Virus record (IMG/VR): IMGVR_UViG_3300023223_000163
Location: 1-33,686 of that record
Length of the DNA: 33,686 bases
Direction: 5' to 3' (one strand)
DNA from: a virus
In this document: positions 3,063 to 14,161 of the stretch, piece by piece
Numbering within the stretch: position 1 is the stretch's first letter
Layout of the letters: every line of letters starts with the position of its first letter
Program-made: the position numbers and the translations under genes
Notes under the pieces: model-generated
Database searches by the model: none
What the model saw: only the letters and a program-made list of their open reading frames with translations
Told to the model about the DNA's origin: nothing

Positions 3063-4138
3063 ATCCCCTAAAGCCCGGTAGCAATAAAACACCCACAGGC
3101 CAGCTCTTAAATGTTAGCCTAGCCTTTGCCGACAATAAAAACCGTTGGCAACGTGCGGCGTTTAGTATTAATAAAATCATTGAGCAAATTCCCCGCGTAA
3201 AATTGGACGTACCCAAGGAAGATGCGCCCAAGGTTACTAAGAAGGAAAAGCGCACTGCTACGCTTGCCAAGAATAAACGGATTGCTGCTTATCTTTTGGC
3301 TAACAGTGAATTTAATATTCCCCGAACATTGGCCAGTGAAATAACCATAATGGTCAATGCTGCACGTTATGAATACACTCTTGATTCTTCGATGATGGAT
3401 GCAACAATGGCAGCTATTCACCGCATATTAGTGGGTGATATCCTTAGCGGGTCGGAGTTTTGGACCACTCGTTTCTTTCTTAATCCAAACTTAAACGAAG
3501 CCAGTAGAGATGGTTTAACTGATAGCTTTGAGTCAGCATTGCGCATAACAGAGGGAACAAGCGCAGAGGCATCGATAGCAGTCATTAGCGCAGAGCAACA
3601 ACTACAACAACCGGCATACTTAGACCGATTGAGGTTAGTTCATGGCCGCACGTTTGAAAGTATGAAGGGCTTAACCGATGAAATGACCGCACAGTTACGA
3701 GTTACATTAACTGAGGGCATGGCGCGCGGTGTTGGTATTCGAGACCTTAAAGGAATGATTAATAATCGCCTTGGCATCGGCATGGGTCGAGCTGAAAGGA
3801 TTGCTAGAACTGAGATTAATAACGCTTATCGTGGCGCATATCTACAAGAAGCCAAAAACCTAAATGAAGATGCGCTAAAAGATGATGAATGGGAAATACT
3901 TCAGGTTCATCGCTCAGCCTTATCCATGACCACACGCTTTGACCATGGCAAACGTCACGCCTTAATGTTCACCATTAGACAGCAAACGGATTGGTGGGCT
4001 ACTGGCTCAAACTCCATAAATTGTTTATGCAGCACGCTTGATGTATTGGTTAATAAGAAAACGGGCGAAGTGTTGCAAAGTAAAATGATAGATACAATGA
4101 CCATCCAAAAAGATGAATGGTTTCCGACTAAAAAATAG
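3059..4138 (+). CDS. Phage head morphogenesis (Mu gpF/SPP1 gp7-like) minor head protein
   Basis: Likely a minor virion protein joined to portal and capsid assembly. The C-terminal third carries the family signature: GMGRAERIARTEINNAYRGAY (about residues 239-259), followed by a conserved HGKRHA-type region and an NCLC stretch (SINCLCSTLDVLV) that resembles the Cys/His cluster of Mu gpF homologues. The N-terminal half is charged and helical. It overlaps the portal stop by four bases. A basic KNK-KK-rich segment at about residues 60-78 may contact nucleic acid. Confidence 0.8.
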   Translation: MNPLKPGSNKTPTGQLLNVSLAFADNKNRWQRAAFSINKIIEQIPRVKLDVPKEDAPKVTKKEKRTATLAKNKRIAAYLLANSEFNIPRTLASEITIMVNAARYEYTLDSSMMDATMAAIHRILVGDILSGSEFWTTRFFLNPNLNEASRDGLTDSFESALRITEGTSAEASIAVISAEQQLQQPAYLDRLRLVHGRTFESMKGLTDEMTAQLRVTLTEGMARGVGIRDLKGMINNRLGIGMGRAERIARTEINNAYRGAYLQEAKNLNEDALKDDEWEILQVHRSALSMTTRFDHGKRHALMFTIRQQTDWWATGSNSINCLCSTLDVLVNKKTGEVLQSKMIDTMTIQKDEWFPTKK

Positions 4139-4146
4139 AGGTTTAA

Positions 4147-4251
4147 ATGATAAACAAAGCAAATGAAAAATTTATTCTATTCGTGTTCGGTTTCGTGCTT
4201 GGCGTTATCGGTACCGTTTCTGGCTATTTGATAGCGGGGATCTTTCAATGA
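4147..4251 (+). CDS. 34-aa membrane peptide of the lysis block
   Basis: ATG 4147 follows GAGG at proper spacing, and its stop overlaps the endolysin start (ATGA, 4248-4251). The peptide MINKANEK is followed by a strongly hydrophobic segment (FILFVFGFVLGVIGTVSGYL). The tight coupling to the amidase suggests a lysis function such as a holin-like or regulatory peptide. It is too short for family assignment. Confidence 0.65.
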   Translation: MINKANEKFILFVFGFVLGVIGTVSGYLIAGIFQ

Positions 4252-4664
4252 TTCCAAATAAAATAATAATCCATTGTAGTGATACGCCATCGAGCATGGA
4301 AGTTACTACAGAAATGCTGCATCAATGGCATGTAATAGAAAATAAATGGTCGGCTATCGGTTATGCCTATCTTATTGATCGTAAAGGTGATATTCATAAA
4401 TGCCGTGATTTAGATGGTGATGGAGATGTTGAGGATGAAATCGGAGCACATACTAGAGGGTTTAACCGCAACAGTGTTGGCATTTGCATTGCAGGACGTG
4501 GTGAGTACAACAATGCTCAATTTGATAGCTTACGTTACCTAATTAACGATATTGTTTCACGCCATGGAATTAAGAAAGAGGATATACAGGGCCATAATTA
4601 TTATGATAAACATAAGACGTGCCCCATGTTTGATGTGCAGGAAAAATTAAAGGAGTGGATGTGA
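4248..4664 (+). CDS. Endolysin, N-acetylmuramoyl-L-alanine amidase (T7 lysozyme-like)
   Basis: Cleaves the amide bond between N-acetylmuramic acid and the stem peptide of peptidoglycan at lysis. The whole 138-residue protein is one Amidase_2/PGRP domain. Expected zinc ligands are His9 (IIIHCSDT), His116 (QGHNYY) and Cys125 (KTCP), with Tyr39 in GYAYLI and Lys123 in the positions of T7 Tyr46 and Lys128. GAHTRGFNRNSVGIC (66-80) is the other conserved block. No signal peptide is seen, so export should depend on a holin. The gene overlaps the 34-aa membrane peptide before it and touches the holin after it. Confidence 0.93.
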   Translation: MIPNKIIIHCSDTPSSMEVTTEMLHQWHVIENKWSAIGYAYLIDRKGDIHKCRDLDGDGDVEDEIGAHTRGFNRNSVGICIAGRGEYNNAQFDSLRYLINDIVSRHGIKKEDIQGHNYYDKHKTCPMFDVQEKLKEWM

Positions 4665-5026
4665 TGAGCTGGATAACTAGCCTATTTACTGGCGGCCTAT
4701 TTAAATCTGTTGAAAATATAGCGTCTGAATGGATAGAGACTGATCTCGAATCAGCAGAAGCAAAGGTTTTAATGATTAAGACATTAGATCCGAATGGTAA
4801 AATGCGCAGAGATTTATCAAAAAGAGTTACCAATTTATATACCTTGTACATTGTAACGGCGCTTATTTTGCTTATATTTGAAAGCTTTGGTATCGGTGAA
4901 GCGGAAGCCATAGCGGTTGCAACAACAAAAGTTACAGAGTTATTTACACCAATCACCACCCTATTTGGGGTAATTGTCAGTGCAAGTTTTGGCGTTAATT
5001 ACGCAAACACTAGAATAAAAACTTGA
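4664..5026 (+). CDS. Holin, GTA_holin_3TM-like
   Basis: 120 residues from ATG 4664. An in-frame GTG at 4655 exists, but the AAGGAG ribosome site sits eight bases before 4664, and the TGATG junction couples it to the endolysin stop. After an amphipathic N-terminus with FKSVENIASEWIETDLESAEAK, a basic loop (KMRRDLSKR) leads to hydrophobic segments YTLYIVTALILLIFESF and LFTPITTLFGVIVSASFGV. This pattern matches the three-TM holins first described in gene transfer agents. It should time membrane permeabilisation for the amidase. Confidence 0.75.
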   Translation: MSWITSLFTGGLFKSVENIASEWIETDLESAEAKVLMIKTLDPNGKMRRDLSKRVTNLYTLYIVTALILLIFESFGIGEAEAIAVATTKVTELFTPITTLFGVIVSASFGVNYANTRIKT

Positions 5027-5051
5027 CACTTTAAAGCGTTAGGAATATATT
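5023..5051 (+). promoter_or_regulatory. Near-consensus sigma70 promoter driving non-coding DNA
   Basis: TTGACA (5023-5028), exactly 17 bases, then TATATT (5046-5051) gives 11 of 12 consensus matches, the best promoter in the window. It overlaps the holin stop codon. Predicted transcription starts near 5058, where no open frame with a ribosome site follows, only hairpins and a terminator. Confidence 0.75.
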
Positions 5052-5111
5052 TGAATTCTACCGAGCAGGTAGAGTATCCGACAAGCGACACGCCAAGTCG
5101 TTAACATGGCA

Positions 5112-5151
5112 CACTCTCTAAGTATATTTCGATAAGTATATTTAGAGAGTG
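5112..5151 (+). repeat. 18-bp inverted repeat with CGAT loop
   Basis: CACTCTCTAA pairs with TTAGAGAGTG. Because the inner AAGTATATTT is repeated directly on both sides of the CGAT loop and is nearly self-complementary, pairing continues to a full 18-bp stem with two G-U pairs. Only a short TTTT follows, so it is more likely an RNA structural or processing element than the main terminator. Confidence 0.7.
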
Positions 5152-5231
5152 CGATTTTCAGCAGGTGTGAACAGCTCTAATTGACAAGACCGCTCCCAAG
5201 CCAATGGGGTAATCATAAGGCTGACAAAGTG

Positions 5232-5252
5232 ACCGCACTCGCGGTATTTTTT
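5232..5252 (+). terminator. Rho-independent terminator of the non-coding transcript
   Basis: Stem ACCGC/GCGGT with loop ACTC, followed by ATTTTTT. It is compact and GC-rich, with a six-base T run. Confidence 0.7.
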
Positions 5253-5298
5253 AAGTGTATTTATTGTGATGTATATGGTTAAACTTCATTAAAAAGCA

Positions 5299-5326
5299 TT
5301 GAGCAGATCACTCTCTGAATTATATT
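5299..5326 (+). promoter_or_regulatory. Possible promoter upstream of the tRNA-like element
   Basis: TTGAGC (5299-5304), 16 bases, TATATT (5321-5326). It would start a transcript near 5333 through the structured stretch and the tRNA-like element. The stretch from CACTCTCT here resembles the arm of the hairpin at 5112, which may be a diverged repeat. Confidence 0.35.
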
Positions 5327-5398
5327 GATTAGTAAGCCTATTGGAAATGAATCGCAGGCATGTGATTAACAAGTGCATCACAACAAGTACATTTAAAA

Positions 5399-5458
5399 AG
5401 AAGCACTCACCACTTTTTAGGAAGTGACATAATATCTAGTAACTATTAGAGTGCTTCT
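5399..5458 (+). repeat. 10-bp inverted repeat enclosing an inner hairpin
   Basis: AGAAGCACTC (5399-5408) is perfectly complementary to GAGTGCTTCT (5449-5458). The enclosed 40 bases contain a second hairpin, CACTT/AAGTG (5411-5415 and 5422-5426), so RNA could form a multibranched structure. It ends nine bases before the tRNA-like element, so it could be a 5' leader or processing site. Confidence 0.6.
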
Positions 5459-5467
5459 ACTAACAAC

Positions 5468-5559
5468 AATCGATTAGCTCAATGGCAGAGCAGTCATAGC
5501 AAATATTATTTAATGTAAGTCTATGTGTGTAGCTGGTTCGATTCCAGTATCGGTTTCCA
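5468..5559 (+). tRNA. tRNA-like cloverleaf with aberrant anticodon region
   Basis: Acceptor strands AATCGAT (5468-5474) and ATCGGTT (5549-5555) pair over 7 bp with one T-G. Discriminator T and encoded CCA follow (5557-5559). The D arm is GCTC-AATGGCA-GAGC (5477-5491) and the T arm GCTGG-TTCGATT-CCAGT (5532-5548), both standard. The 39 bases between them do not give a canonical 5-bp/7-nt anticodon arm with T33. The best stem is CATAG (5495-5499) with CTATG (5521-5525), leaving a 21-nt loop. No amino acid can be assigned. It may be a degenerate tRNA, a tRNA with a 14-nt loop insertion, or a tRNA mimic. Confidence 0.6.
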
Positions 5560-5819
5560 AACAAATACCGCAGCGTGTCTCACCACGTTAAGCGATTACA
5601 GATAGAAAATTAACAAGGGTTTTTGGTTTATCGGTCGAGCGATAAATACACGAACAAGGTGAAACAGATAGCCTCTCCTCTTTGTTATCGATGGATTTAT
5701 AACCCATCCATTCTTACTGTATTTCGTATGCAAAGGCCTGAGTCCTGTTTCTGAATGTTTATACAGGGTAGCTCTCATAATTAGTAGTGATGCTAATGGC
5801 GAAAGAATCACGCAGATAG
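5560..5819. other. Non-coding stretch with several short hairpins
   Basis: No convincing gene was seen on either strand. Inverted repeats include TTTATCG/CGATAAA (5627-5633 and 5640-5646), ATGGAT/ATCCAT near 5690-5710, CCTGT/ACAGG near 5747-5768, and the overlapping alternatives ATTAG/CTAAT (5780-5797) and GTGAT/ATCAC (5787-5811). It may be a continuation of a structured transcript from upstream ending at the 5820 terminator. Confidence 0.4.
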
Positions 5820-5851
5820 ACCACACTAGCACGCGCTTTTGTGGTTTTTTT
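5820..5851 (+). terminator. Rho-independent terminator before the tailspike
   Basis: ACCACA (5820-5825) pairs with TGTGGT (5840-5845), with an inner AGC/GCT stem, followed by a run of seven Ts. It closes transcription from the non-coding region. Its 3' arm also overlaps the -35 box of the next promoter. Confidence 0.65.
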
Positions 5852-5867
5852 GTGCCTGCAATATAAT
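5839..5867 (+). promoter_or_regulatory. Late promoter of the tailspike gene
   Basis: TTGTGG (5839-5844), 17 bases and a perfect TATAAT (5862-5867), with the ATG 29 bases further on. The -35 is weak. The -10 followed by AGG fits the TAYAATRR pattern. Confidence 0.5.
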
Positions 5868-5896
5868 AGGTGTAAATCTATTAATAAGGAACAACC

Positions 5897-8173
5897 ATGG
5901 CAGACTACGACAATCCCCGCCCGTCATCACAACCAATCGGCTCAACAGATCAAGCGGTGGCAAAAGATAACCTGATCTCACTTGATATTATGGCTTTATC
6001 CGAAGAGGACGATTTTACCAACCGCAAAGGTGAGCTACGAAAAACAACTAAAGGCCTTGAAAACTTAACGCTTGGAATTATTGACGATTTCAATGAGGAG
6101 GCTGCAATTGCTATTGCGGCGGCTGGATATGATGTTTTAGGTGACTTTGCAGATTCAATAGTTGCAATCGATAACCCTAATGAAGTATTAACATCAAAAT
6201 CTGTGGTAGGTTTTGAGGGATATGTATGGAAAACTAATCAACCGTTACCATATACGCGCGTAGGGTCTGATCCAACAATTCCGCCAGAGTTGGGTAAATG
6301 GCTAGCTGTTGCAATCGGTGAATTACAAACAATCGCTAGAAGTTTAAATATTAGCGATAACGATATAATTTATAGTACCGATACAGTAACACCTATTACC
6401 GCCTATATTTACTCATCGTCACAACAGAAGACGTATAGAGCGCCATCCCAAGCGGTTGGCGAAACAATAACAAGCCTAACAGTTGCTACCTTAATTTGTA
6501 GCGCGGGAACGTTTGAGTTGTCCGAAATAAACCCATACCTTGGATCAATCGTCTATGTTAACGCAGTTGGTGAAGGCGGTATTATTGATGATACAGGCGC
6601 AATACAAGACGCAATCGATAAGGCCAGTTCTCTACAATACGTTAAGCGTGGCGTTAAGATTGTACTACGCGCACCTAAAAACTATTACCAAGTATCAGCA
6701 CCGTTAAACTTTGATGAACTTTGGAACGTCCACCTTGAATGCGAAACTAAAAACGGGTGGAATCGCAGTGAGTTTGCAACGGCTGAAACTAGAGGGGGTA
6801 ATGTTCACTGGATAGGCAATAGCACTGATTCACTATTTGATTTTGGCACTTTCTGCTTTGGGGTTAACTTCAAAAATATTATTGTTAATGGTCGAGAAAC
6901 TTGTAAATTAGCATTTGATTTAACCGCTCCACCGCCTGCCGTATTGCGTGATTATTACTTTGATAATTGTGGTGCAATATTGTGTGACTTCGGCACAGTT
7001 AACGGTGATATTGTCGGCACCGATTTAGCTCCTGTTACTTGGATTAACCCTATATTTACGCAGAACACCTCAGCGGCGATAATTAACAATTCTGGTAATG
7101 CCACCATGACAGTTATAGGCGGGTTCATCACTGGCAACGGTTTCGCCCCTACCATTGGAAACAGCTTTATACCTGACAGTGATAATGATGGTTATCAAAT
7201 ATTAAATAGAGCAGGCCACTTATCAACTTTAAATATTACGTTGGATGGTAGCCCTGGCAATTTAGCAGCTAGTGGAGAAAACATCCTAATAGCAGGCGGT
7301 AGCGCAACACTTGACGGATGGGATGATACACCAGAAGTGGTAAGCGTTAACTGTGGCGGTAATACTGAAAATATAGTATTCGGTAAATGGCGTCATTTTG
7401 ACGGGTCAATGACCAAAGGCAATACGCCAACATCAATAATTCACTCAGCACCTTGTGTTATGAACACGCATGGAGGCATGTTTGTATTTGGTGACATAGA
7501 GATTAATGCAGGTAATCAAGCTGGCTTAGTTGATAGCGGCGTTAGATTTGAAGATCCATTATCAGGCTTTACTGGTACAGTTTCAACATCGGGTGGTCTA
7601 TCTAGAAACACTAGAAACGGATTCGGTCAGGTAGCAGCAACATTTGGTGGTGACTTTATACCTATTGGAACAGATGTTGTTCCTGCATTCCAATCGATAT
7701 ACAACAGAACAAACAGACCAGCAACAGCAAACCGCTCGCTAGATGTTAACAGTTTTATAGTAACTGAAACATTTAAAGCCAATGGTGATTATGAGAGACT
7801 GACAAATACATGGTTTGATACTGGCGCAGGGCAATATAAATCAATTGTTGCAGGCGGTTGTATAAGAAAATTAATTACAACAACCCAACTTGAGCAACTT
7901 GCAGTATATACTGCAGTTGCAGCAAATGAGGTTGTGACATTTTCAGCGGTATTCGGGGCCAGAAAAGGCGTAGGCAGTAACGGAGCGCACCAGCTAGAAC
8001 TAAGCGGAAACAAGTTCAGCTTCGACAAGCCAAATTCGGGGCTAGTAGCAAGAGGCGACACTTTCATGAGCGCGTCAGCAACACCCGGCGGCAAAGCAGG
8101 CGAGATAGTAACAACAACTGGAACAGTCGGCAGCACAGCAGTATTAAAACCATTCGGCGTAATTGACGCATAA
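5897..8173 (+). CDS. Tailspike / tail fibre with pectate-lyase-type beta-helix
   Basis: Probable receptor-binding or polysaccharide-degrading spike. Residues 1-70 (SSQPIGSTDQAVAKDNLISLD and the DFTNRKGELRKTTKGLENL region) resemble the virion-anchoring N-terminus common to podo- and siphovirus spikes. An Ala-rich helix and a short linker domain follow to about residue 220. From IDDTGAIQDAIDKASS (about 228-243), typical of Pectate_lyase_3 repeats, the protein continues as a Gly/Asn-rich beta-helix. The C-terminus is Gly/Thr-rich. AAGGAA precedes the ATG. It lies unusually far from the tail tip gene, next to the lysis block. No active-site residues were assigned. Confidence 0.82.
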   Translation: MADYDNPRPSSQPIGSTDQAVAKDNLISLDIMALSEEDDFTNRKGELRKTTKGLENLTLGIIDDFNEEAAIAIAAAGYDVLGDFADSIVAIDNPNEVLTSKSVVGFEGYVWKTNQPLPYTRVGSDPTIPPELGKWLAVAIGELQTIARSLNISDNDIIYSTDTVTPITAYIYSSSQQKTYRAPSQAVGETITSLTVATLICSAGTFELSEINPYLGSIVYVNAVGEGGIIDDTGAIQDAIDKASSLQYVKRGVKIVLRAPKNYYQVSAPLNFDELWNVHLECETKNGWNRSEFATAETRGGNVHWIGNSTDSLFDFGTFCFGVNFKNIIVNGRETCKLAFDLTAPPPAVLRDYYFDNCGAILCDFGTVNGDIVGTDLAPVTWINPIFTQNTSAAIINNSGNATMTVIGGFITGNGFAPTIGNSFIPDSDNDGYQILNRAGHLSTLNITLDGSPGNLAASGENILIAGGSATLDGWDDTPEVVSVNCGGNTENIVFGKWRHFDGSMTKGNTPTSIIHSAPCVMNTHGGMFVFGDIEINAGNQAGLVDSGVRFEDPLSGFTGTVSTSGGLSRNTRNGFGQVAATFGGDFIPIGTDVVPAFQSIYNRTNRPATANRSLDVNSFIVTETFKANGDYERLTNTWFDTGAGQYKSIVAGGCIRKLITTTQLEQLAVYTAVAANEVVTFSAVFGARKGVGSNGAHQLELSGNKFSFDKPNSGLVARGDTFMSASATPGGKAGEIVTTTGTVGSTAVLKPFGVIDA

Positions 8174-12031: not shown

Positions 12032-14161
12032 ATGGCAGACAAAAGAGCAGACCAGTTTGATCCCGCAACGTCACAAGATTTATTTGTTTCAGGGACAGAT
12101 AAAGAAGACTTAACTGATGGGCCAGAAGGTAGCACACGGCGCTTTAATCTATCGGGGCTAAGCCATGCATCAACAGGCGTGTTTACTGGCGGAGTGTTAA
12201 CATTCGCAACAGTATCAACAATTGACGTAGCAACGGTTGCAGGCGTTGTTAATGATCTAACCGATACATTCCCGAATCAATCACATCCTATCAAATTAGA
12301 TGCGTTTACCTATAATGCTAACGTTGCTGTTGATGGAACATTTTTATTGTTAATTGATAAGCTTGGCGCTACATCTCAGCAGTTATTAGATGCATCTGAC
12401 CCAGTTGTAAGGCGCAGAGATTTCTTATTTCTTGGTGCGTTCACGGTGTCAGGTGGTGCAATTGTTAGTGTGGTTAATGCAAAACTATCACCACTTGAAC
12501 CCGCTCAACAACTGTTTGATTTACTTGCTGGGCTTGGAACAATTCGATTCAGTGGTTTAGCTTTCTCAATCATTGCGGGAGGCACTTATTCAGTTACTAG
12601 CGGAATATTAGCAAGTATCGGCGCGGGTGCATCGGGTGCAGGACGAGCGCAGAATCAAATTGATATCCCAGCAGAAGTACCACAAAGTTTTATTTATGTA
12701 TTAGGTAAAACTGGAACATTTCTACCGGGCACTGAGACGCAATTGCAATCTGATATATTCGATGATGGCAATGTAACGGCTGATACTATTGGTGGTGGTG
12801 GCAATCAAGCGACAATACAATATATCTTCAAGCTACCATCTGATGACAGCGTTAACTATATCGTGTTAGGTCAAGAAGTTTATGCAACGATGGACGATGC
12901 AGAAGCAGCCGCATCTAGTGACCAAGCAAACTTGATTGTGCCTGATTTACTTGCTAAAAATGCGCTATTAGTTGATCGGATTGTAATGCAAAAAACCATT
13001 AGTGACTGGGAGGACATGGCCGAATTCACCACGCTAGGCGGTTCAATATTCGGCTCAACTGTATTAGGTGGCTCAGCTATCGGAGGTGGTGGTGGTGACT
13101 TCTTTGGCCCTGCATCAAGCCAAGTAAACGAGCTGTTAACCTTTGCAAGTGGCACAGGTAAAACAGGCTTAGCGGCTTCTGATATCTCTGTGATTGCTGG
13201 TGTTATTGAACGCATAACCAATGGCGAGGATTTATGGTTAAAAGTAGATGCATCTAATGAGAATGTGTTTATAGGTCGGCATGTTGATGGTACTGGCGTT
13301 CCAAGCTTAACAAATACAACATTGCTTGTTACTGCAAATGCAACTAACAATATCGCACTCGTAACGCTTGGTAACAACTCGCAATCGATTGACTTTGTAA
13401 AATCAGGTGTGTTTAGAGGGAAGATTTCTAATAATAGAGATAGAAATTCAATTGCATTGGAAAACGCAACAGGAAAGCGATTGGAGATATTGCCGAATGA
13501 CACAGCAACATTCTTGGTCGATAAAATTGGTATTGGTAAAGCAGCATCGCCTGATGATATGATCGTAAGTTACCCAGCTAACTCTGGTGGTGTTGGTCTA
13601 TCAAGCTTTACCACTGTTCAACGTGACGCAAAGACATTTGAAGCTGGCGCGGAAATTTGGAACATTGACACGACTATATCAGAACGTTATGACGGAGCTG
13701 TTTGGAGTCAATCAGGTGGTAAAAGAGAGAGCTGTATTGTATCGGCATTCCAGAATACACAGCCAACATTAATCATTGCGTTAGATAGTTACGTAAGGGC
13801 TAGACTTGGTGGTGGTCAGACTATCTCTAATCAGAAAAACTTCACACTTGGCACTGATGGTGCTGTTTATTCTGGTAATGGATACAGAGGTGTTGTGACA
13901 ATTACATTTGACTATCACATCCCGCCTTCCCTACTTGATACTAAAGGTTATGCTTTTGCGATAGGTCGAGATGGAACGCCATTGACCAACTCATTACATG
14001 AAAATAATGATGTGCACAATAGCAGTGAATACATACAAGGCGCTTGCACAACGCTAGTTGAATTAGCTAACGGAGCCGAGATTACATTGCGAGTCAAACA
14101 GATTGTAGGAACGCTTGAGGATGATATTACATTCCGTAATGTCTCAATTACATTCAGCTAA
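12032..14161 (+). CDS. Large fibre-like virion protein
   Basis: 709 residues, rich in Gly, Ala, Thr, Asn and beta-strand pattern, with no catalytic motif seen. The N-terminus (MADKRADQF, later TGPEGS-type linkers) recalls phage fibre proteins. Gly runs (IGGGG near 255, GGGGGD near 350) separate the N-terminal anchoring part from the C-terminal region. The C-terminal 160 residues contain the pattern GYRGVVTITFDYHIPPSLL, suggesting a receptor-binding tip domain. Location between capsid and neck genes suggests a head or neck fibre rather than a tail-tip fibre. It is closed by a small gene and a terminator. Confidence 0.7.
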   Translation: MADKRADQFDPATSQDLFVSGTDKEDLTDGPEGSTRRFNLSGLSHASTGVFTGGVLTFATVSTIDVATVAGVVNDLTDTFPNQSHPIKLDAFTYNANVAVDGTFLLLIDKLGATSQQLLDASDPVVRRRDFLFLGAFTVSGGAIVSVVNAKLSPLEPAQQLFDLLAGLGTIRFSGLAFSIIAGGTYSVTSGILASIGAGASGAGRAQNQIDIPAEVPQSFIYVLGKTGTFLPGTETQLQSDIFDDGNVTADTIGGGGNQATIQYIFKLPSDDSVNYIVLGQEVYATMDDAEAAASSDQANLIVPDLLAKNALLVDRIVMQKTISDWEDMAEFTTLGGSIFGSTVLGGSAIGGGGGDFFGPASSQVNELLTFASGTGKTGLAASDISVIAGVIERITNGEDLWLKVDASNENVFIGRHVDGTGVPSLTNTTLLVTANATNNIALVTLGNNSQSIDFVKSGVFRGKISNNRDRNSIALENATGKRLEILPNDTATFLVDKIGIGKAASPDDMIVSYPANSGGVGLSSFTTVQRDAKTFEAGAEIWNIDTTISERYDGAVWSQSGGKRESCIVSAFQNTQPTLIIALDSYVRARLGGGQTISNQKNFTLGTDGAVYSGNGYRGVVTITFDYHIPPSLLDTKGYAFAIGRDGTPLTNSLHENNDVHNSSEYIQGACTTLVELANGAEITLRVKQIVGTLEDDITFRNVSITFS

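Follow-up and report, generated by a model that had tools for sequence, protein, structure and literature searches.

A tRNA body without an anticodon arm at the tRNA docking site of a predicted large structured phage RNA

What can be the role of a tRNA-like element whose ends are complete and whose anticodon arm is missing? Such an element lies in a virus sequence of 33,686 nt (IMG/VR record IMGVR_UViG_3300023223_000163), the whole of which is referred to below as the window. The original prediction, made from the sequence, described an element whose acceptor, D and T arms and CCA are all intact and whose middle region is unable to form an anticodon arm, and suggested that it may be a tRNA mimic, a loop insertion or a non-decoding adaptor. 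The two features concerned are as follows.

5468..5559, + strand: tRNA-like element; acceptor, D and T arms and CCA intact, anticodon arm absent
5495..5525, + strand: CATAG/CTATG stem (arms 5495-5499/5521-5525) with a 21-nt loop replacing the anticodon arm; not above shuffled sequence

Direct counting bore out the intact ends. The acceptor stem (5468-5474/5549-5555) displays 7 of 7 pairs, one of them U-G, the D stem (5477-5480/5488-5491) 4 of 4, and the T stem (5532-5536/5544-5548) 5 of 5, one of them G-U, around TTCGATT; T5556 and the encoded CCA (5557-5559) follow. The body keeps every one of its 16 pairs, together with the CCA and the consensus bases of the D and T loops. The spacing between the D and T stems is 40 nt (5492-5531), not 39 as originally given, and the accompanying claim that no arm of 5 bp with a 7-nt loop and T33 can be formed there was correct: over all placements, 4 of 5 pairs are attained only once (GTCAT/ATTAT, loop AGCAAAT), with one G-U pair, one C-U mismatch and a G at position 33. 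The only good stem is, as had been noticed, the perfect CATAG/CTATG stem around the 21-nt loop CAAATATTATTTAATGTAAGT. Folding of the middle against shuffled versions revealed no structure beyond chance, 31% of the shuffles folding equally well or better. The body of the element is far beyond chance and the middle alone is not. No orthologue of this copy was found in the collections searched. Inside the 21-nt loop (5500-5514), the in-frame GCA AAT ATT ATT TAA reads like a four-residue tmRNA tag, which is probably a coincidence as tmRNA features are missing.

The ability of the element to decode was evaluated with a tRNA caller and a covariance model. ARAGORN reports a class II tRNA-Leu(CAA), built on the GTCAT/ATTAT arm, and no tmRNA. 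When the middle was replaced by dinucleotide shuffles of itself within the same body, some tRNA was called in 367 of 400 cases, and the class II Leu(CAA) assignment therefore carries no information. The 22-nt 'variable region' implied by the call is stemless (fold of 0.0 kcal/mol). The Rfam tRNA model RF00005 does not match the element even at E<=10, and scores the tRNAs of three relatives at 58.8-65.1 bits. The element thus possesses the acceptor, D and T arms and CCA of a decoding tRNA, and lacks both the 5-bp, 7-nt arm with U33 and recognition by RF00005. An ordinary class II fold, named in the original prediction as a result that would speak against it, is assigned by ARAGORN, uninformatively, and is not seen by RF00005. 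The anticodon assignment was treated as an artefact, and the non-decoding reading was retained. The element resembles the tRNA-like domain of tmRNA as a tRNA body without anticodon within a longer RNA. It differs from it by its full 4-bp D stem and by acceptor pair 3-70, which is U-G (U3-G70) where alanine charging expects G-U (G3-U70).

A stand-alone ~92-nt element is not supported by its surroundings. A larger structured RNA encloses it, and in relatives its slot is occupied by ordinary tRNAs or left empty. The element is contained in a gap of 870 nt (5027-5896). On one side of the gap is a small gene (4655-5026, phrog_31219, no assigned function), which follows an amidase/endolysin gene; on the other is a tail-fibre gene. 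The features of this gap and its downstream border are given below.

5023..5051, + strand: promoter of the large RNA, TTGACA-17-TATATT, 11/12, over or directly after the stop of the upstream gene
5058..5851, + strand: putative large structured non-coding RNA of ~795 nt, delimited from promoter to terminator, with an estimated transcription start
5112..5151, + strand: 5' hairpin with 18-bp arms, common to L022 and L025
5232..5245, + strand: hairpin ACCGC-ACTC-GCGGT, whose 3' half has an alternative long-range partner
5248..5399, + strand: long hairpin, arms 5248-5271/5376-5399, 23/24 pairs
5400..5457, + strand: second hairpin, directly 5' of the tRNA slot, GAAGCACTC/GAGTGCTTC
5563..5851, + strand: conserved 3' domain of the large RNA, common to all nine members
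5780..5811, + strand: H-type pseudoknot with covariation, S1 5780-5784/5793-5797, S2 5787-5791/5807-5811
5820..5851, + strand: rho-independent-type terminator, ACCACA...TGTGGT-T7, with aligned terminators in all relatives
5897..8173, + strand: tail fibre/spike gene from the gene scan, downstream synteny anchor outside the RNA

The large RNA would be transcribed as an independent unit. Promoters of matching position and type are present in Vibrio phage LP.1 (L018 613-640) and in two IMG/VR contigs (L025, 11965; L030, 12375). Compared to shuffled sequences, the fold of the ~800-nt intergenic unit reaches z = -5.8 in the window and only about -1.5 in Vibrio phages pYD21-A and LP.1. The long hairpin 5248-5399 undergoes matched length changes in relatives, for instance TATTTTTAAGTGT/ACACTTAAAAATA in L030, and the hairpin 5400-5457 recurs in L025, L023 and L030, the latter two with AACCACTC/GAGTGGTT. 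The 3' half of the hairpin 5232-5245 could alternatively pair GCGGTATTT (5241-5249) with AAATACCGC (5563-5571), closing a junction that holds the tRNA slot. The corresponding pair in L024 is GCGGGTTTT/AAAACCCGC; L025 gives the long-range form no support.

A homologous unit was identified in eight relatives, namely the two Vibrio phages and six IMG/VR contigs (L021, L022, L023, L024, L025 and L030) retrieved by searches for the N-terminus of the tail protein and for motifs. The equivalent gap measures 877 nt in pYD21-A and is short in LP.1, which carries the 3' domain only. All-against-all comparison revealed shared blocks in a common order. The 3' domain was recovered in every member by a profile and by covariance model R1, a recovery that shows coherence only, R1 having been built from the members themselves. 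In seven aligned members, 91% of the cells of the pseudoknot 5780-5811 are paired (23-57% with slid partners), and both sides have changed in 24 double-change cells versus 8.6 in shuffled alignments, none of 500 shuffles reaching 24. By eye, L021 and L002 display a pseudoknot like that of the window with one-base shifts. An Rfam search of the units, ROOL included, matched no family, and the GOLLD model RF02032 did not match any of the nine records even at E<=10. Scans of GTDB genomes with the motif and the tail protein yielded no family member, nor did model R1 in 119 genomes of one order. Three sequence patterns were also used. The 13 IMG/VR matches to GCAAANGCCTGNGTCCT were rejected as chance; AGATAG..CTCCT..TATGCAAA was too loose, and only known members passed filtering among the matches listed; the 3'-domain profile found no new member among the 74 matches to AAGTGACCGCANNCGCGG. 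In relatives, the large RNA includes small ORFs of ~45-75 codons in its 5' part; these occur in several members (L021 1887-2057, L022 ~1238-1393, L023 ~1827-1958, L025 12724-12929, L030 12909-13130) and are absent from the window; one type is hydrophobic with ..LLQLYKT.R and two are basic.

The position occupied by the element is filled differently among these relatives. L025, which comes nearest to the window in its 5' end and hairpins, carries a canonical tRNA-Met(CAT) (13092-13169) between the counterpart of hairpin 5400-5457 and the 3' domain, which is exactly the site of the element. In L024, a canonical tRNA-Trp(CCA) (1063-1137) precedes the 3' domain. The last ~300 nt of L022 and L024 are 93% identical, the tRNA being present in L024 and absent from L022, and these two form an empty/filled pair. 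In pYD21-A, a tRNA-Gly(TCC) lies in the equivalent gap, with a placement less precise than for the Trp and Met cases, and several family members carry no tRNA at all. Since the same junction can hold a Trp, Met or Gly tRNA or stay empty, it is a docking site for tRNA cassettes, and the window copy is a tRNA body without decoding ability at that site. The absence of any tRNA from several members also implies that the large RNA can do without a tRNA body. A random loss of arms among related phages had been proposed as a sign of decay. It was observed in part, in tRNA fragments of the same RNAs, no orthologous copy of the element itself having been found: a fragment in L002 (4611-4694) still shows pairing in the acceptor and keeps a T arm as well as a 5+7 anticodon arm, and is devoid of D arm and CCA, and a T-arm-like piece lies within the large RNA of L024 (~950-1045). 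Decay therefore does occur in this family. A further T-arm-like piece lies in L030 (~12685-12720).

In order to determine whether the architecture recurs elsewhere, IMG/VR was scanned for class I D arms separated by 36-55 nt from a T arm, a pattern that leaves the acceptor stem free and whose counts are lower bounds. At least 121 distinct elements were obtained; among the matches listed, 31 of 121 carry a canonical arm (at least 4 of 5 pairs and T33) and 90 do not, this latter figure being an upper bound on the class as several of the elements in it are real tRNAs whose position 33 is C, whose loop is short or whose variable arm is odd. Among the matches listed, the acceptor stem has at least 6 pairs in 81 of the 90 non-canonical elements, which does not alone exclude recent decay, since intactness of the D and T sequences is built into the pattern. 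In at least 36 phage tRNA bodies (IMG/VR loci L274-L393), a perfect 5-bp stem with a 15-34-nt loop replaces the anticodon arm. The same D/T-arm pattern occurred once in 274 gammaproteobacterial genomes; elements with this architecture are common in phage contigs and seldom met in cells. A loop motif, GCATTTGCG, is shared by L290, L314 and L334. L369 and L372 display a nested hairpin with a compensatory change, and nothing resembling the L369 element was found in the phage records searched.

A conserved tRNA-like element without anticodon arm was also found in phage phiC31 and seven relatives.

L398 1501-1590, equal to phiC31 NC_001978 31424-31513: phiC31-group element; also L301, L399-L404, L392 and L342

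This element is unannotated in most records and labeled tRNA-Gly in one. Its stems are 98% paired, with 15 double-change cells versus 5.3 expected from shuffling (0 of 500 shuffles), and the compensatory changes fall in the acceptor stem, the T stem and the non-anticodon stems of the middle. It resembles the window element by its intact acceptor, D and T arms and non-decoding middle, and differs from it by a conserved and structured middle, a stand-alone location between small genes and an unrelated sequence. Compensatory changes, which had been named as a check of the original prediction, were thus seen in other phage elements of this kind, in the phiC31 group and in Aeromonas phages.

The explanation that best accommodates these data, which we hold with roughly even confidence, is that 5468-5559 is a tRNA-derived, non-decoding module in the tRNA docking site of a large structured phage RNA. 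The complete arms and CCA, the lack of a usable anticodon, the homology of the site, the RNA around it and the recurrence of the kind elsewhere, with constraint in the phiC31 group and an insertion in the anticodon loop of an Arg(UCU) tRNA of Aeromonas phages, speak for it; the surrounding RNA is itself probably functional, judging from the covarying pseudoknot and the shared promoter and terminator. Against it stand the single copy known, a middle no better than shuffles, and the tRNA fragments in L024, L030 and pYD21-A. Mechanistically, the tRNA body may fold as a branch of the junction of the large RNA. RNase P and the 3'-end enzymes recognise the acceptor arm, the T arm and CCA, the very parts that the element has kept. 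Like other tRNA bodies, it would be cleaved at both ends by host RNase P and 3' tRNA-processing enzymes. The outcome would be either a free and stable tRNA-like RNA of ~92 nt or a large RNA divided into its 5' and 3' parts. Selection at the slot would most likely act on the tRNA body, as a processing signal, a stabiliser or a junction-forming domain, and not on decoding. The original observation is confirmed, and its interpretation is partly supported.

The main alternative is a recently wrecked tRNA, in which an ordinary tRNA gained at the slot was deprived of its anticodon arm by a single insertion or recombination, too recently for the remainder to have decayed. The gain and loss of tRNAs at the slot among relatives, the degenerate pieces in all three of L002, L024 and L030, and the middle without structure beyond chance are all consistent with such an event; the lack of an orthologue and the broken pieces in relatives keep this alternative close. 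The 16 intact body pairs, loop consensus and CCA argue against it, as the fragments of the relatives have lost several parts, and so does the frequency of the same architecture in phage contigs and its rarity in cells. We regard a wrecked tRNA as a serious possibility, although one that is on balance doubtful.

A tRNA precursor with a short anticodon-loop intron, which a nuclease-ligase system of the phage or its host would excise to yield a normal tRNA, has a precedent in Aeromonas phages, where 26-28 nt are inserted in the anticodon loop of tRNA-Arg(UCU) (CTTCT/AA, the slash marking the insertion) in PX29 and Ah1, the loop being uninterrupted in phiAS5. In the record of PX29, a tRNA joined from two pieces is annotated at this site.

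L397 701-800, L395 701-801 and L396 701-773: Arg(UCU) loci of Aeromonas phages PX29, Ah1 and phiAS5

On its loop side, the CATAG stem of the window shows CAAAT... and no T33, and no excision giving a canonical 7-nt loop was found. Where phage elements combine a perfect outer stem with a loop of 15 nt or more, loop position 2 is a T in 10 of 36 among the matches listed, which is no enrichment. An intron is accordingly improbable here. The Aeromonas locus adjoins gene 57B, annotated as an RNA ligase in PX29.

A functional class II tRNA-Leu(CAA) is very unlikely: the ARAGORN call and a total length of 92 nt, within the class II range, are opposed by the mismatched 4/5 stem with G33, the stemless 'variable arm', the class I-type D arm, the calls on shuffled middles and the silence of the Rfam tRNA model. 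Least probable of all is a relic of an attachment site (attP or a tRNA for tRNA-dependent lysogeny), for although integration-linked tRNAs are found in phages (PMC10865867), what lies here, with lysis genes on one side and tail genes on the other, is no partial tRNA, the slot is occupied by tRNAs of different isotypes in relatives, and no integrase was identified among ten ORFs scanned.

The large RNA can be compared with known ones. GOLLD has a conserved 3' and a variable 5' region, with tRNAs nearby and sometimes inside a linker (PMC12286853). The window RNA is likewise phage-borne, ~800 nt long, conserved in 3' and variable in 5', with a tRNA in a linker, a resemblance in apparent working only, since none of the nine members matches RF02032. 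ROOL is a large phage or prophage RNA often found near tRNAs (PMC12286853), and shares with the window RNA its size class and tRNA association; the window-type units differ in having no Rfam match. The large RNA was not filed as GOLLD or ROOL because these tests of sequence and structure failed. The most abundant transcript of phage ICP1 is a non-coding RNA of ~800 nt (PMC7567579), and this Vibrio phage has a ~1-kb orf-less gap beside its lysis genes. A 23-nt hairpin, TGACTGCCGTGAA-AGTGCGGCA, is common to the minus-strand gap 4098-5108 of ICP1 (L405) and to L022 1038-1059 (E 0.007). Model R1 did not match the ICP1 gap, which was rejected as a family member for want of the 3' domain; ICP1 also differs by having no tRNAs.

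It is tentatively proposed that two linked and undescribed kinds of phage RNA are involved, a family of large RNAs with a tRNA docking site and a class of non-decoding, anticodon-stripped tRNA bodies, the window displaying the second plugged into the first. In the open-access literature, subscription papers lying outside the search, neither this RNA family nor a class of phage tRNA-like elements lacking the anticodon was found to be described, and the novelty of both is regarded as provisional. GOLLD and ROOL form RNA-only cages. With a slot that accepts a Trp, Met or Gly tRNA, a non-decoding body or nothing, the reason why tRNAs sit beside or inside such RNAs becomes testable. The recurrence of anticodon-less elements, including in a phage as classic as phiC31, is also a warning that tRNA callers give anticodons to RNAs that have none. 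Finally, about 20 phage tRNA-Ile(TAT) genes (IMG/VR L281, L285, L311, L359 and others) were observed to combine a long class II-like variable arm with a class I D arm.
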